64,000 nt of DNA from Sphingomonas morindae (GTDB lineage Bacteria; Pseudomonadota; Alphaproteobacteria; Sphingomonadales; Sphingomonadaceae). This document shows positions 821 through 62,510 of the stretch, piece after piece; the stretch's first letter is position 1, and each line of letters opens with the position of its first letter. Where the stretch lies: contig NZ_CP084930.1 in assembly GCF_023822065.1 (NCBI RefSeq), positions 434,001 to 498,000 on the forward strand, given 5' to 3'. Made by a program: the position numbers and the translations under genes. The notes beneath the pieces were generated by a model. It searched no databases, was not told the origin of the DNA, and worked only from the letters and a program-made list of their open reading frames with translations.

Positions 821-1468
821 TCAGTCGCGGCTCAGTTCGTCCACCTGGTCCATGATGGTCTGCAGGGCGGTGGTGTTGCTGTCGGTCTGATGCTCGCGGC
901 GCGAGGGCAGCTTGCCTTCGGTGAGCAGCGCCTCCAGCGCCACCCGGCCCCGCGCGACGCGGCTCTTGATCGTGCCGACCGCGCAGCCGCAAATCTCGGC
1001 CGCTTCCTCATAGGCGAAGCCGCCCGCCCCCACCAGGATCAGCGCCTCGCGCTGCGGCTGGGGCAGGTGCAGCAGGGCGCGCTGCATATCGCCAAGCTCG
1101 ACATGGCGATCCTGGCTCGCCGGCGCGGCGAGCAGCTTGGACGCGGTGATCTCGTCCCACTCGCCCTTGAAGCGCGCGCGCCGCATCTGGCTGAGGAAAA
1201 GATTGCGCAGGATGATGAAGGTCCAGGCGCGCATATTGGTGCCGGCCTGGAAGCGCTGCCGCGCCGCCCACGCCTTGAGCAAAGTTTCCTGCACGAGATC
1301 GTCGGCAAGATCGCGGTTGCCGGACAGGGATCGGCCGAAGGCGCGCAGATGGGGAATCACCTGAGCCAGCTGAACCTTGAAGTCCGCATCCGACAGCGGC
1401 GTGTGAGGAACAGGCGCCCCGCCCGCGGCCGCCCCCTCTTCCGCCATGGGCGGACTGGTCTTGGTCAT
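821..1468 (-). CDS. ecfG: ECF sigma factor EcfG (general stress response sigma)
   Basis: Sigma factor of the alphaproteobacterial general stress response, 215 residues. Region 2 spans about residues 35-105 (DDLVQETLLKAWAARQRF and a WTFIILRN helix). Region 4 spans about 130-182 (LPQPQREALILVGAGGF...GTIKSRVARGR). It would recognise GGAAC/CGTT promoters and is held inactive by NepR. The ATG at 1468 gives MTKTSPPMAEE and is preceded by a G-rich stretch. In many alphaproteobacteria ecfG follows nepR in an operon. Here it instead lies downstream of phyR on the minus strand, behind a 46-residue membrane protein gene (98 bp apart) whose perfect EcfG promoter could provide autoregulation. Confidence 0.95.
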   Translation of the reverse strand: MTKTSPPMAEEGAAAGGAPVPHTPLSDADFKVQLAQVIPHLRAFGRSLSGNRDLADDLVQETLLKAWAARQRFQAGTNMRAWTFIILRNLFLSQMRRARFKGEWDEITASKLLAAPASQDRHVELGDMQRALLHLPQPQREALILVGAGGFAYEEAAEICGCAVGTIKSRVARGRVALEALLTEGKLPSRREHQTDSNTTALQTIMDQVDELSRD

Positions 1469-1566
1469 GAAACCCCCAAGCTCCGTTGAGCGGGATACAT
1501 CCCCGCAGCCTGAATCAAGATAGGCGCGCCCGAGCGGCAACGCCAGTGCCCCCGCGTCGAGTGTCG

Positions 1567-1732: not shown

Positions 1733-1757
1733 AACGTGAGGGGCCGGGAGGAGTTCC
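1733..1757 (-). promoter_or_regulatory. EcfG-dependent promoter (perfect consensus) for the 46-aa protein and ecfG
   Basis: On the minus strand, GGAAC (1757-1753), a 16-nt spacer, then CGTT (1736-1733). This matches the alphaproteobacterial EcfG consensus exactly. It sits just behind the phyR stop and 26 nt before the ATG at 1707. If transcripts run on they include ecfG, giving a positive feedback loop. Confidence 0.8.
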
Positions 1758-1767
1758 GTCGCACCGG

Positions 1768-2565
1768 TCAGGCGGGTACGGTCGCGCCGTCGAAGAACAG
1801 CGCCTGGCTGATCGCCGCCTTCACCGTGGAGCGCTGGAAGGGCTTGGTGATGAGGAAGGTCGGCTCGGGCCGCTCGCCGGTCAGCAGCCGCTCGGGGAAG
1901 GCGGTGATGAAGATCACCGGCACGTCGAACTGGGCGAGAATGTCCTTCACCGCGTCGATGCCCGAACTGTCGTCCGCCAGCTGGATATCGGCGAGGACGA
2001 GGCCGGGCCGGCGCGCCATGGCCTGGGCCACCGCCTCGTCGCGGGTCACCGCGACGCCCGTCACGCCATGGCCGAGATCGCGCACGATCGTCTCGAGATC
2101 CATCGCGATGATCGGCTCGTCCTCGATGATGAGCACCTCGGCCTGGGTCTGACGCTCGATTTCGGCGAGCGCCTCGGCGACCAGCGCGTCCACCTCGGCC
2201 GGGGTCACGCCGATCAGATAGGCGGTGTCCTCGGTGGTGAAGCCCTCCATCGCGGTCAGCAGCAGCGCCTGGCGCGAGCGCGGCGTGATCCGCGCCAGCC
2301 GCGCCTGGGCGATAGCTTCGGTGGGGCTGTTGTCCTGCCCACCATCGACCCCGGTATCCACCGAGGCGGACTGCCAGATCGCCTGGAAGGTACGGTAGAG
2401 ACCGAGGCGAGGATCGACGTCGCGCGGAAAATCCTCGGGCGCGGCGACGATCGCTTCCAGCGTCGCGCGCACATAGGTGTCGCCCTCTTTCTGGTTGCCG
2501 GTCAACGCCCGCGCATAGCGCCGCAGAAAGGGAAGGTGCGGCGCGAGTTCCTGGCCTAGTGGCAT
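1768..2565 (-). CDS. phyR: PhyR, sigma-mimic response regulator of the general stress response
   Basis: Anti-anti-sigma factor, 265 residues from the ATG at 2565. Residues 1 to about 135 form the sigma-like domain (LPFLRRYARALTG, TPRSRQALLLTAMEGF). Residues about 142-262 form a receiver with acidic pocket (IIEDEP), phospho-acceptor Asp193 (LADIQL), Thr221 and Lys241 (ITKPF). Phosphorylated PhyR binds NepR and so frees EcfG. I chose MPLGQELAPH as start because known PhyR proteins begin at this point. An upstream in-frame ATG at 2589 (MLRSLDTD) and others further up are alternatives. It is divergent from nepR, and I saw no clear EcfG promoter facing phyR. Confidence 0.95.
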   Translation of the reverse strand: MPLGQELAPHLPFLRRYARALTGNQKEGDTYVRATLEAIVAAPEDFPRDVDPRLGLYRTFQAIWQSASVDTGVDGGQDNSPTEAIAQARLARITPRSRQALLLTAMEGFTTEDTAYLIGVTPAEVDALVAEALAEIERQTQAEVLIIEDEPIIAMDLETIVRDLGHGVTGVAVTRDEAVAQAMARRPGLVLADIQLADDSSGIDAVKDILAQFDVPVIFITAFPERLLTGERPEPTFLITKPFQRSTVKAAISQALFFDGATVPA

Positions 2566-2679
2566 ATCCGTGTCCAAACTCCTGAGCATGTCCGTGATGC
2601 GAGGCGTTTGCTCGGCCATCCCCCGCGGAATGGCCACCCCCCGTGTCGCGGCGGCCGCGCGGGAGCGGCCGTCGGACAG

Positions 2680-2704
2680 GGAACCAACGGACCAGTTTTT
2701 TGTT
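2680..2704 (+). promoter_or_regulatory. EcfG-type promoter upstream of nepR (distal)
   Basis: GGAAC at 2680-2684, 16-nt spacer, TGTT at 2701-2704. One base off the CGTT consensus, correctly spaced, in the phyR-nepR intergenic region and reading into nepR about 110 nt further on. It suggests that EcfG drives its own anti-sigma factor. Confidence 0.65.
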
Positions 2705-2755
2705 TCCAAGGCCAGCCGGCAAATTGTGCGACGCCTATCCCTTGCACTATGGCTG

Positions 2756-2780
2756 GGAACGGTAACGCGGCTGGCGCGTC
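2756..2780 (+). promoter_or_regulatory. Possible second EcfG-type promoter upstream of nepR (proximal)
   Basis: GGAAC at 2756-2760, 16-nt spacer, CGTC at 2777-2780. One mismatch in the -10. Only 33 nt before the presumed nepR start, so a transcript from here would have a short leader. It may be a tandem promoter with the 2680 site, or chance. Confidence 0.4.
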
Positions 2781-2812
2781 TAGAGGCGGCATCGACATGG
2801 GGACGGGGCACA

Positions 2813-2986
2813 TTGGCGTTGAGCGACGATAAGACATCACGGAACGTCCCGGACCGCGAAACCTCGTCCGCCGGCCGCAAACAGGCCGATCGGGACGTTG
2901 GACATGCGCTGCGGTCGGTCTATGCATCGACCGTTAACGAGGAGATCCCAGCCGAGCTGATCGATCTGCTCGGCAAGCTCGACTGA
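2813..2986 (+). CDS. nepR: NepR anti-sigma factor
   Basis: The frame carries the NepR core VGHALRSVYASTVNEE followed by IPAELIDLLGKLD at its C-terminus. NepR binds EcfG under non-stress conditions and is titrated by phosphorylated PhyR. There is no ATG between the promoters and the core. TTG codons at 2813 and 2819 are the likely starts (57 or 55 residues), with GGGG runs 4-14 nt upstream, so the start is a choice rather than a certainty. The product is partnered on the same strand by the PhyP-like kinase homologue 35 bp downstream, not by ecfG. Confidence 0.85.
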   Translation: MALSDDKTSRNVPDRETSSAGRKQADRDVGHALRSVYASTVNEEIPAELIDLLGKLD

Positions 2987-3021: not shown

Positions 3022-4677
3022 ATGTCCAATGACGAACAGATCCGCGCGGGCTTCATCGCCTCCCGGTTCGCGCGCCTGTCGACCAGCGGTAAATTGCTGC
3101 TCATCCTCACGCTGGCGCTGCTGCCGCTGGGGCTGATCGCGTCGCTCGCCTCGATCGAGACGGCGCGCGCCAACCATGCCAATCGCGCCGCCGCGGCACG
3201 CCTGCTGGCGGGCGATTCGGCCGATCGGCTGAGCCTCTTCCTGGATCATGTCAGCGCGTCGCTCCGACTCGCCGGGCGCGGCGGCGGCGCCGGCGCGTGT
3301 CGCCGCGCGGCCGAGGAGATCAGCGTGGCGGGGGTGGAGAGCGCCCGCGTCGCGCTGTTCAATCCGGCCGGGCGGCTGATCTGCGCCAGCGCCAGCTTTC
3401 CCGGCACGCTGCCGCTGCGCGCGCCCGGCGTGGCGCCGCAACTGCTGCTGGATGGCAAGGGCGGCATGCTGCGCGTGATCCTCGGCACCGGCCAGAACTG
3501 GGCGCTGGCCGAATTGCCGCGCGCGCTGCTTGCCAAGGTGAGCCACCCCAATGCGGTGGACGGCAGCTATGATCTCCGCCTCGCCGACGGGCGCGGCGGC
3601 GTGATGCCGCTGGCGGCGATGCGCACCGTGGCGCTGGGGCGCGACATCGTCTCGCAACTGCCCGTCGCCCAGGGCCAGTTGCGGCTGGCGATGCGCGTCG
3701 AATCGCTGCCGCTCAGCGCCAACGAACTGCTCATCACCGCTCTGCCGCTGCTGATGTGGCTGGCGGCGGCGGCGATCGGATGGGTGGTCGCCAACCGGCT
3801 GATCCTGCGCCCGCTCGGCGAATTGCAGCGCGCGATCGAGACGGCGCGGGCGCGCGGCGGCGCGCTGGTGATGCCCGCCATGACCACGCCCGCGCAGGAA
3901 ATCCGCGATCTCGGCGATGCCCTGTCGGGCGCGATGGCGACGATCGCGCGGCACGAGGCGGAGCTTGAGGACGGCCTCGCCCGCCAGACCCGGCTGACGC
4001 GCGAAGTGCATCACCGCGTGAAGAACAATCTCCAGGTCGTCGCCAGCCTGCTCAACATCCATGCGCGCGGCGCCCGCACGCCCGAGGCGATCGCGGCCTA
4101 TGGCGCCATCCAGCGCCGCGTCGATGCGCTCGCGCTGGTGCATCGCAGCCATTATGCGGAGCTCGAGATCAATCGCGGCGTGGCGCTGCGCCCGTTGATC
4201 GGCGAACTGGCCGCCAATCTGCGCGGCTCCGCGCCGCCGGGCATGGCGCCGCCCCGGCTGGTGCTCGACACGCGTCTGTTCAGCGCCACGCAGGACGTGG
4301 CCGTGCCCGTCGCCTTCCTCATCACCGAGCTGGTCGAGCTGGCGATGTTCCGCTTGCCCGGCACCGAGATCCGCATCGGGCTGGATGGCGAGGGCCCGGA
4401 CCTCGAGCCCGGGCGCGCGCGCCTCTCCATCGTCTCGCCGGGCCTGGCCGATGCCGCCGCCCCGCGCGACGAAGCCTTTGTGCGGGGCGAGCGGGTGGTC
4501 GGCGGCCTCGCCCGACAGCTGCGCACCACGCTCGTCACCGATGCCGAGGCCGGCCGCTTCGCGCTGGACATCATCGTGATGGACGAAGGCCAGCCGCGCA
4601 TGGATGGCGCCGGCGGCCGTGATCTGGTGATGCAGCAGCGCGGCGGCGCGCTGCCGCCCGTCCATATGGGCGGCTGA
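3022..4677 (+). CDS. phyP: PhyP-like membrane HisKA_2 kinase homologue with degenerate ATPase domain
   Basis: 551 residues. Transmembrane helices at about 24-44 and 236-257 flank a periplasmic sensor region. A HAMP-like linker follows to about 310, then a HisKA_2 dimerisation helix with EVHHRVKNNLQVV (His331 in the acceptor position). The ATPase part is eroded. Where HATPase domains read ELVxNA, this protein has TELVELAMF (435-443), so the Mg-ATP Asn is Leu440, and no glycine-rich G boxes are visible. That combination matches sphingomonad PhyP, reported to act as a PhyR phosphatase and negative regulator rather than a kinase. It lies directly after nepR and is probably co-transcribed with it. 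Confidence 0.85.
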   Translation: MSNDEQIRAGFIASRFARLSTSGKLLLILTLALLPLGLIASLASIETARANHANRAAAARLLAGDSADRLSLFLDHVSASLRLAGRGGGAGACRRAAEEISVAGVESARVALFNPAGRLICASASFPGTLPLRAPGVAPQLLLDGKGGMLRVILGTGQNWALAELPRALLAKVSHPNAVDGSYDLRLADGRGGVMPLAAMRTVALGRDIVSQLPVAQGQLRLAMRVESLPLSANELLITALPLLMWLAAAAIGWVVANRLILRPLGELQRAIETARARGGALVMPAMTTPAQEIRDLGDALSGAMATIARHEAELEDGLARQTRLTREVHHRVKNNLQVVASLLNIHARGARTPEAIAAYGAIQRRVDALALVHRSHYAELEINRGVALRPLIGELAANLRGSAPPGMAPPRLVLDTRLFSATQDVAVPVAFLITELVELAMFRLPGTEIRIGLDGEGPDLEPGRARLSIVSPGLADAAAPRDEAFVRGERVVGGLARQLRTTLVTDAEAGRFALDIIVMDEGQPRMDGAGGRDLVMQQRGGALPPVHMGG

Positions 4678-4704
4678 GCGGCGGCATTTTTTTGGCGCGG
4701 GCCG

Positions 4705-4729
4705 GGAACCCCCTGGCGCAGGCGGCGTT
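4705..4729 (+). promoter_or_regulatory. EcfG-dependent promoter (perfect consensus) ahead of the predicted sRNA
   Basis: GGAAC at 4705-4709, 16-nt spacer, CGTT at 4726-4729: an exact match to the EcfG consensus, starting 27 bp after the phyP stop. The next ORF starts only at 4976, so the immediate product would be a non-coding transcript beginning near 4736. Confidence 0.8.
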
Positions 4730-4735
4730 CTACAG

Positions 4736-4830
4736 TCCGGATAGCGACCTTTTGCCCCCCCGCTCTCGCTATCCAGAACACACTGGGCCCGGACGCGCCG
4801 CCTTCCCCCCCGACGGCGCATCCGGGCCCT
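4736..4830 (+). ncRNA. Predicted stress-induced sRNA with two C-rich hairpin loops (GsrN-like)
   Basis: Starts about 7 nt after a perfect EcfG -10. Hairpin 1: GGATAGCGA (4739-4747) pairs perfectly with TCGCTATCC (4766-4774), and the 18-nt loop holds seven consecutive C (4755-4761). Hairpin 2: 16-nt arms at 4785-4800 and 4814-4829 with one mismatch (C4794/A4820). Its 13-nt loop again holds seven C (4805-4811) after CCTT. No ORF is plausible here. Caulobacter GsrN is a sigmaT (EcfG)-dependent sRNA whose C-rich loop pairs with mRNA leaders; similar architecture and location suggest an analogue, but the match is structural only. Hairpin 2 may serve as terminator, although the following TAAACTTG is a poor U tract. 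Confidence 0.6.
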
Positions 4831-4903
4831 AAACTTGTCCGCGCCTCAAGATGCGCGTCGTCCCCGGTCAAAGACGCCTGCTCCGCCGATCCATATCGGA
4901 CGT

Positions 4904-4928
4904 GGAACTAAAGTTTTGGGGGCGCATT
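4904..4928 (+). promoter_or_regulatory. Candidate EcfG-type promoter of the entericidin-like gene
   Basis: GGAAC at 4904-4908, 16-nt spacer, CATT at 4925-4928 (one mismatch to CGTT). Transcription from here would leave a leader of about 40 nt before the ATG at 4976. Confidence 0.55.
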
Positions 4929-4975: not shown

Positions 4976-5113
4976 ATGGTCCGCAAGATCGTCACCGCCG
5001 GCCTCGTCGCCGGTGCGCTCCTCACCACCGCTTGCAACACTATCGCGGGCGCGGGCAAGGATGTCTCCTCGGTCGGCCACGCGACCACCGACGCCGCCAA
5101 CAAGACGAAGTAA
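4976..5113 (+). CDS. Entericidin A/B family small lipoprotein
   Basis: 45 residues. A lipoprotein signal peptide (MVRKIVTAGLVAGALLTTAC) has its lipobox Cys at position 20, followed by NTIAGAGKDVSSVG, the entericidin core, and a short TTDAANKTK tail. Entericidins are tiny envelope lipoproteins often induced by stress or stationary phase through general stress sigma factors. A ribosome-binding site (AAGGGA) lies about 7 nt before the ATG. The gene ends the GSR locus behind an EcfG-like site (4904-4928) and could also be reached by read-through from the 4705 promoter. It converges on tatC. Confidence 0.88.
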   Translation: MVRKIVTAGLVAGALLTTACNTIAGAGKDVSSVGHATTDAANKTK

Positions 5114-5174: not shown

Positions 5175-5933
5175 TCAGCCTTCCCTGGCCCGCCGCCGCT
5201 CGGTGAACCAGATCGCGATCAGCGCGAATTCGTAGAGCAGCACCAGCGGCACCGCGAGCAGCAGCATCGAGACAATATCGGGCGGGCTCAGCACCGCCGC
5301 GATCGCCGTCACCGCCACGATCGCATAGCGGCGGCCGGAGACGAGCTGCGCGCGGGTGACGATGCCGGCGCGCTCCAGCAGCATCAGCAGCACCGGCAGC
5401 AGAAAGGCGACACCGAAGCCGAACAGGAATTTGGTGACGAACGACAGGTAGTTGCCGATCGCCGGCAGGGCCTCCTGCTGGATCCCTCCGATATTGCCCT
5501 GGAAGCCGAGCAGAAAGTGCAGCGCCAGCGGCATCGCCATGTAATAGGCCAGCGCCGCGCCGGACAGGAAGAGCAGCGGTGTCAGCACCAGGAAGGGCCG
5601 GAGCGCGCGCTTCTCCTTGGTGTAGAGGCCGGGCGCCACGAACCGCCAGATCTGGTTCGCCACCACCGGGAAGCTGAGCATGATCGCGGCGAAGAAGGCC
5701 ACCTTCACCTTGGCGAAAAAGGCTTCGAACACGTCGGTGTAGATGAGCTTGCCCTGGCCCGCGCGCAGCAGCGGCTGGACCAGGAAGGCGAAGATCGTCT
5801 CGGCGAAATAATAGCAGGCGAGAAAGGCGATCAGCAGCGCCGAAAAGCTCCAGATCAGCCGCCGGCGCAGCTCGATGAGGTGATCGAGCAGGGGCGCGCG
5901 GCTGTCTTCCAGTTCGTCCTCGTCCATGATCAT
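5175..5933 (-). CDS. tatC: Sec-independent (Tat) translocase subunit TatC
   Basis: 252 residues with six predicted transmembrane segments, the normal TatC size. TatC is the inner-membrane receptor for twin-arginine signal peptides and forms the TatBC recognition complex. The N-terminal cytoplasmic motif HLIELRRRL (residues 18-26) and the first periplasmic loop FVAPGLYTKEKR are family hallmarks. It is the last gene of tatABC. The start at 5933 (MIMDEDELED, or the Met two codons in) lies 2 bp after the tatB stop, implying translational coupling. Confidence 0.96.
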   Translation of the reverse strand: MIMDEDELEDSRAPLLDHLIELRRRLIWSFSALLIAFLACYYFAETIFAFLVQPLLRAGQGKLIYTDVFEAFFAKVKVAFFAAIMLSFPVVANQIWRFVAPGLYTKEKRALRPFLVLTPLLFLSGAALAYYMAMPLALHFLLGFQGNIGGIQQEALPAIGNYLSFVTKFLFGFGVAFLLPVLLMLLERAGIVTRAQLVSGRRYAIVAVTAIAAVLSPPDIVSMLLLAVPLVLLYEFALIAIWFTERRRAREG

Positions 5934-62484: not shown

Positions 62485-62510
62485 GGAACCCCGGCGCGGC
62501 CGGCGCCGTT
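62485..62510 (+). promoter_or_regulatory. Candidate EcfG promoter ahead of the AsmA-family gene (N17 spacer)
   Basis: GGAAC at 62485-62489, 17-nt spacer, CGTT at 62507-62510: an exact consensus match with the longer permitted spacer. Transcription would start around 62517, only a few nt before the ATG at 62520, giving a nearly leaderless mRNA. About one perfect match could arise by chance in a window of this size, so support is moderate. Confidence 0.45.

Follow-up and report, generated by a model that had tools for sequence, protein, structure and literature searches.

Sphingomonads serve as model organisms for the general stress response (GSR) of Alphaproteobacteria, and RNAs with C-rich loops are known outside this group, for instance the actinobacterial 6C RNA, which has about six C in both of its loops. 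The available part of one source describes the C-rich loops of 6C RNA and cites a work whose title states that it binds multiple mRNAs via these loops without chaperones (PMC9569102). In Caulobacter crescentus, GsrN raises KatG, its C-rich loop pairing with the katG leader; according to the same paper, BLASTn finds GsrN homologues only in Caulobacteraceae, putative ones were added from Rhizobiaceae and other species, the gene lies typically near ecfG-nepR-phyR, and no gsrN-like gene is apparent in the sphingomonad Erythrobacter litoralis (PMC5869019). A trans-acting sphingomonad sRNA is also described, SuhB of Sphingopyxis granuli TFA, but it is 61 nt long and linked to growth rate and carbon catabolite repression, with no tie to EcfG mentioned in the excerpts available (PMC6563040). 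No description of the small RNA presented here was recognised in a literature search restricted to the available text of open-licence papers, which is weak evidence of absence, and a term search of two sphingomonad GSR papers, likewise available in part, returned no small RNA in the circuit, its single hit on an RNA term being the title of a cited work.

The element lies in the GSR locus of the analysed DNA (hereafter the window, i.e., the whole stretch of 64,000 nt). Judging from its sequence, it is probably a trans-acting, EcfG-driven, stress-induced sRNA of ~100 nt with C-rich loops that pair with G-rich mRNA (probability roughly 0.78), and its best reading is that of a GsrN analogue with two C-loops, a likeness of regulon, place and 5' C-loop that implies no claim of sequence homology. 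As far as GsrN is covered by the text available, both would share an EcfG (SigT) promoter of the form GGAAC...CGTT, a length of ~100 nt, a 3' terminator hairpin (predicted here) and a C-rich loop in the 5' half, with six tandem C in GsrN, whereas the 3' hairpin of the sphingomonad RNA also has a conserved C-run. The first-pass annotation had already proposed this analogy, which held for the EcfG box, the GSR locus and the exposed 5' C-loop, though not for katG as a target. KatG (TIGR00198) has no match in the window's genome (G000), where a katG target is thus impossible, and matches in 9 of the 9 other genomes searched; katG can therefore be no general target of the small RNA.

In layout, the 6C RNA (RF01066), with two hairpins and C-rich loops in its Rfam consensus, comes closer to the element than GsrN does, but it belongs to a different phylum (Actinobacteria). 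Its model scored 19.5 bits against a cut-off of 47, with hairpin 1 not placed on the model's first hairpin. We know of no counterpart of EcfG control for 6C RNA, and the resemblance is most likely convergent. Of the Rfam models, that of the Streptomyces sRNA Scr3202 (RF02833), whose terminal hairpin likewise has a C-rich loop, scored highest at the locus, with 26.9 bits (E 0.03) where the cut-off is 52. The sub-threshold alignments to both models cover mainly hairpin 2, and neither model appeared at E ≤ 1 in 20 homologue-bearing loci under a less sensitive search. Rfam 15 gave no match at gathering score in the 64,000 bases, and, by the sequence comparisons given below, the element represents a conserved RNA family that no Rfam model covers at its threshold. 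This kind of RNA is known already; what is new, within the literature searched, is the family and its breadth, the conservation of a C-loop on the second hairpin and the association with PhyP/PhyT. The RNA would join GsrN and 6C as another C-rich-loop RNA, distinct in sequence, and, as a predicted EcfG-driven and family-wide RNA, would be a candidate for post-transcriptional regulation.

Homologues, structure and promoter

Homologues were collected by BLASTn with a 171-base query in 60 genomes, including the window's own, which gave matches at E ≤ 0.1 in 36 genomes, many of them short. Thirteen were accepted, and together with the window they made up the 14 sequences from which the covariance model R1 was built. 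The locus set consisted of the 30 best R1 matches (with the window standing in for the match in its own genome), 40 loci chosen for genera or extra copies, and L017 and L021; it is not a random sample, and the genomes G004, G021 and G365 contribute to it more than once. On these 72 sources R1 produced 92 matches, 20 of which lay on the opposite strand, reflecting the self-complementary hairpins, and were dropped, leaving 72 sense copies. The 69 copies with E < 1e−6 formed the alignment A4 (the weak L069, L076 and L094 were left out), and a second model, R2, was built from 69 sequences. The features of the window copy and its surroundings are collected in Table 1.

Table 1. Coordinates of the predicted small RNA, its parts and the neighbouring genes in the window
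Feature	Position	Strand	Basis
ECF sigma factor, named ecfG for its position (start uncertain)	821..1549	-	PF04542, PF08281
phyR within mechanical ORF (start uncertain)	1768..2880	-	PF22029, PF22233, PF00072; NF006623 1.4e-112
nepR, anti-sigma factor (start uncertain)	2768..2986	+	PF18557 3.3e-8
HisKA_2/HWE histidine-kinase-like gene, called PhyP/PhyT by place	3022..4677	+	PF07568 3.7e-18, PF07536 1.5e-6
EcfG-type promoter GGAAC-N16-CGTT	4705..4729	+	pattern match
Predicted small RNA	4738..4839	+	covariance models R1 (107.0 bits), R2 (96 bits)
Hairpin 1: 9-bp stem, 18-nt loop CCTTTTGCCCCCCCGCTC; whole hairpin GGATAGCGA-CCTTTTGCCCCCCCGCTC-TCGCTATCC	4739..4774	+	fold and alignment
C7 run in loop 1, predicted to bind targets	4755..4761	+	at least 5 C in 68/69 copies
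Hairpin 2: long G+C-rich stem, C7 loop with CCTTCCCCCCC, 45 nt	4785..4829	+	fold and alignment
C7 run in loop 2, predicted to bind targets as a second site	4805..4811	+	at least 5 C in 67/69 copies
A/U-rich tail TAAACTTGTC	4830..4839	+	column counts over 69 copies
Entericidin-family lipoprotein, 45 aa, downstream	4976..5113	+	PF08085 1.6e-6, above cut-off
tatC, next gene downstream on other strand	5175..5933	-	PF00902 6.5e-72

Two hairpins with C7 loops next to CCTT or CTTTT had been claimed for the site; both hairpins and both exact C7 runs are there, but a G stands between TTTT and the first C7. Loop 1 is letter-identical in 36 of the 69 copies, and the mean unpaired probability over the 69 sequences was 0.89 for the first C-run and 0.97 for the second. 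We infer a 5' end at ~4736 and a 3' end at ~4839. The stem of hairpin 2 likely doubles as the terminator stem in this structural model, and the tail, which in relatives is A-rich and then U-rich after helix 2 (69 copies) and whose U-tract is weak in the window copy, is probably the U-tract of an intrinsic terminator, where termination is predicted. Positions 4736–4830 fold with −49 kcal/mol versus −28.3 ± 2.8 in 200 dinucleotide shuffles (z −7.3), but the opposite strand of the element also folds stably (z −6.27), so that folding alone is no guide to strand. At the paired positions of the 69-sequence alignment, 83 cells are G-U versus 13 A-C, which shows that selection acted on the plus-strand RNA. 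A mechanical ORF of 46 aa (4692–4832) runs across the element, and two plus-strand frames are stop-free in 60 and 54 of the 69 copies (raw counts without a baseline); the element is 74 to 95 nt long over the same copies, with all remainders modulo 3, and such lengths, out of codon phase, do not fit a conserved coding sequence.

A consensus box lies directly upstream of a non-coding structured element here, the arrangement of an EcfG-regulated sRNA, and the perfect EcfG promoter proposed for the site proved to be one that recurs in the homologues. In its loose form (GGAAC-N15-18-[CGT]GTT, 4–16 nt 5' of the element, outside the covariance model) the promoter precedes 64 of the 72 homologous copies, and in its strict form 53, with a background, sampled in the same loci at intervals of seven positions and including the true sites, of 160 loose and 91 strict matches among 61,864. 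Spacing is nearly constant: 55 of the 64 promoter-bearing copies combine a 16-nt spacer with a distance of exactly 8 nt from the end of the box to the model start. Among the first 14 homologues, GGAAC-N16/17-CGTT was present in 13, with TTGTT instead in G030. The loose form is absent in 8 of the 72 copies; one of them, L096, has GGAAC, but with AGTT, and five (L072, L073, L074, L101 and L076) have neither a promoter match nor any of the six neighbouring genes queried.

Within the 64-kb window, the pattern GGAACN{16,17}SGTT matches three times versus a shuffle mean of 0.69, a number reached by 3 of 100 shuffles. Another consensus EcfG box (1733–1757, minus strand) is located 5' of the ECF sigma gene and of a 46-aa ORF (1567–1707) whose product resembles a membrane protein, so placed that autoregulation is possible, and the third match to the pattern is found at 62485–62510 on the plus strand.

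Conservation, covariation and proposed function

The two hairpins are present in all 14 homologues of the first alignment. When these were aligned with MAFFT, unfitted to any model, both sides had changed at 15 of the 27 pairs and 94.1% of the cells were paired; the covariation score was reached by 0 of 500 shuffles and the count of further pair types by 2 of 500, with helix 1 nearly invariant and the covariation sitting in helix 2. In A4, changes on both sides with pairing kept were observed at 25 of the 27 pairs (9 of 9 in helix 1 and 16 of 18 in helix 2), 94.0% of 1803 cells were paired versus 79.8% in shuffles and 26–48% with slid partners, and none of 500 shuffles reached any of five covariation measures; A4 was fitted to the model and thereby favours the structure, a bias from which the MAFFT alignment of 14 is free. 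In addition, a 24-base pattern of hairpin 1 only was scanned through named genome contigs and occurred in at least 120 stretches. Among the matches listed, a loose promoter, its position not fixed, lies upstream in 118 of 120, and a second C-loop hairpin (≥10 bp, with a run of ≥5 C within or beside the loop) is found in 115 of 115 distinct downstream sequences versus 23 of 575 mononucleotide shuffles, counts that do not represent independent events since the stretches are related. The first-pass annotation had let its proposal depend on the two stems and C-runs being conserved in related genomes, and conserved they are. The element is very probably a functional RNA.

Under the proposed mechanism, PhyR would sequester NepR during stress and free EcfG, which would transcribe the ~100-nt RNA from its own promoter. 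The preformed 5' hairpin would present CCUUUUG-C7-GCUC and hairpin 2 a second C-run, and the C-loops would pair with short G-rich mRNA sites, by which translation or stability would be altered. Specificity would reside mainly in loop 1, whose flanks are fixed. Loop 2, whose flanks vary, would assist it or act as a second site, and its stem would also terminate transcription. The exposed C-runs, the position of loop 1 and stem 1 as the most conserved parts and the loop 1 kept by a second copy (L099, see below) fit a preformed seed loop.

How conservation is spread over the element bears on what its loops may bind. The majority share amounts to 0.90 in loop 1, 0.88–0.89 in stem 1, 0.80 in loop 2 and 0.71–0.73 in stem 2, the least conserved part. 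Titrating RNAs in general have repeated motifs in stable hairpins, and the element likewise repeats a motif in two of them and keeps the C-run of loop 2 while the flanks vary, which would suit a sponge that titrates an RNA-binding protein with its two C-rich hairpins, mRNA pairing being secondary. Such a role appears unlikely to us, as the whole of loop 1, flanks included, is as conserved as stem 1, which a protein binding the C-run would not need, and we know of no alphaproteobacterial protein that binds C7 hairpin loops. For an RNA that pairs with mRNA, as preferred here, the nearly fixed loop 1 and the covarying stems make loop swaps and compensatory target mutations easy to plan.

The prediction of targets for the C-loops among mRNA leaders, suggested along with the first description of the site, yielded no convincing target. 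Long complementarity to loop 1 was found at 73 sites in 8 genomes versus 81 in the reversed control, and 9 of the 73 were the RNA genes themselves. Two patterns with loop-1 complements before ATG gave 16 versus 3 and 67 versus 19 matches in 10 genomes, but the reversed control breaks the start-codon context, so that this excess in leaders is not specific. Comparing the predicted products of the leader sites all-against-all gave three pairs between G001 and G009, which are closely related, and a single weak one between G000 and G004 (31% identity, E 1e−5), beyond which no leader site was common to more than two close species. GGGGG is present within ~250 nt in two (L299 and L302) of the three katG leaders located by motif among 9 loci, and absent in L297.

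Genomic neighbourhood and the PhyP/PhyT association

The assignment of the site to the GSR locus was fully supported, with genes for NepR, PhyR, the ECF sigma factor and the HisKA_2/HWE kinase adjoining, all within 4 kb. As to the name of the kinase, the available text of one paper states that PhyT of S. melonis was formerly named PhyP (PMC6599016). Across the homologous loci, a PhyP-like tblastn match was obtained in 54 of 72, on the same strand and ending at most 150 nt upstream in 42, and on the other strand in L089. A TatC match was obtained in 57 of 72 loci, on the opposite strand in 57 of 57, and the element is often flanked by phyP/phyT on one side and tatC on the other. None of the six queried neighbours was found at seven of the 72 loci (L068, L072, L073, L074, L076, L099 and L101), and 31 of the 72 are only ~3 kb long, so that more distant genes are invisible there.

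An entericidin-like ORF, as recognised by a regular expression, occurs at most 700 nt downstream in 47 of the 72 copies, and this, with the terminator-like combination of hairpin 2 and a U-rich tail, could be taken to mean that the element is a cis-acting leader or attenuator of the entericidin gene whose hairpins control read-through. We regard this as quite improbable, given that the expression finds no such ORF in the other 25 copies, that in six of these 25 (L061, L083, L091, L095, L103 and L105) a TatC match on the opposite strand begins within 22–93 nt, leaving no room for a downstream gene, that the entericidin gene of the window has a GGAAC box of its own (4904–4908, by eye), and that the second copy L099 is situated elsewhere, near SRAP and IMS-family genes. 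A mere terminator or DNA-level inverted repeat 3' of phyP with no regulatory RNA function is highly improbable: the PhyP matches ending close upstream and the U-tailed hairpin 2 would accord with it, but the EcfG promoter at fixed distance, the conserved 18-nt loop and the first hairpin would all be unneeded and the G-U bias means selection on one RNA strand. As a separate observation, GGAAC ahead of the entericidin gene is followed by 16 nt and CATT (4904–4928, plus strand), with the same spacing in some relatives such as L012, L013 and L014 (by eye), and this sequence is perhaps a variant EcfG promoter.

The trans-acting sRNA, as we read it, and PhyP tend to occur together. In the 397 genomes of the window's family, 146 had both the RNA and PhyP (E ≤ 1e−20), 6 the RNA only, 13 PhyP only and 232 neither, with a Fisher p of 4e−84 that overstates the association because the genomes are not independent; HWE kinases of other kinds may account for weak PhyP matches in this count. 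Of the 13 genomes with PhyP only by R1, three (G140, G141 and G232) do match R2, and in G062, with PhyP at 3.5e−105, no such RNA followed the EcfG-like boxes in the stretch that was examined. The co-occurrence provides a specific hypothesis on stress-response control: if the tie is true, the RNA may set the output or the shut-off of the PhyP/PhyT-controlled stress response. We advance a broader proposal tentatively, with the odds somewhat against it, namely that this undescribed RNA family would be the post-transcriptional arm of the sphingomonad stress response, that the device of two C6-7 loops would have evolved independently in Alphaproteobacteria and Actinobacteria to read G-rich mRNA sites broadly, and that the RNA would be functionally tied to PhyP/PhyT.

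Distribution and additional copies

A covariation search across sphingomonads, also suggested at the outset, was productive: besides the covarying pairs described above, R1 at E ≤ 0.01 matched 152 of the 397 family genomes, in 42 of 96 genera, and had no match in 245. The hairpin-1 matches listed belong to Sphingomonas, Stakelama, Sphingosinicella, Sphingomicrobium, Allosphingosinicella, Parasphingopyxis and Sphingobium boeckii, and further ones to bins labelled Sphingomonadaceae, Sphingomonadales, Alphaproteobacteria or Proteobacteria. With R2, 92 of 296 genomes of the order matched, all 92 from the window's family (the 296 being counted without division by family), and 6 of 289 genomes of the class, i.e., the window's own, one more of the family and four weak matches elsewhere (L134–L137, E 1.6e−5 to 0.009), which have no normally spaced EcfG box in the 70 nt upstream. 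Within the genomes tested, the small RNA is, by these model matches, a family-level feature. The pattern of an EcfG box plus C6 occurred in 38 of the 289 class genomes with 51 matches versus 56 in the reversed control, on which no wider class of such RNAs can be claimed.

Among the weak matches, L134:1501–1595 (G672, from another family of the class) shows two C-loop hairpins and a U-rich end with no EcfG box, and is possibly a distant relative or a parallel invention. In genus g21, up to three copies with C-rich loops occur (L072, L073 and L074 in G365; L101 in G281). They show no promoter match, nor any of the neighbours queried, and are possibly a branch of the RNA family under other control. 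The second copy in G004 (L099:3450–3541, corresponding to G004:C1:2293349–2293440) has an unchanged 18-nt loop 1 on a different stem and an EcfG box of its own, and adjoins two SRAP genes and an IMS-family (ImuB/DinB-type) gene.
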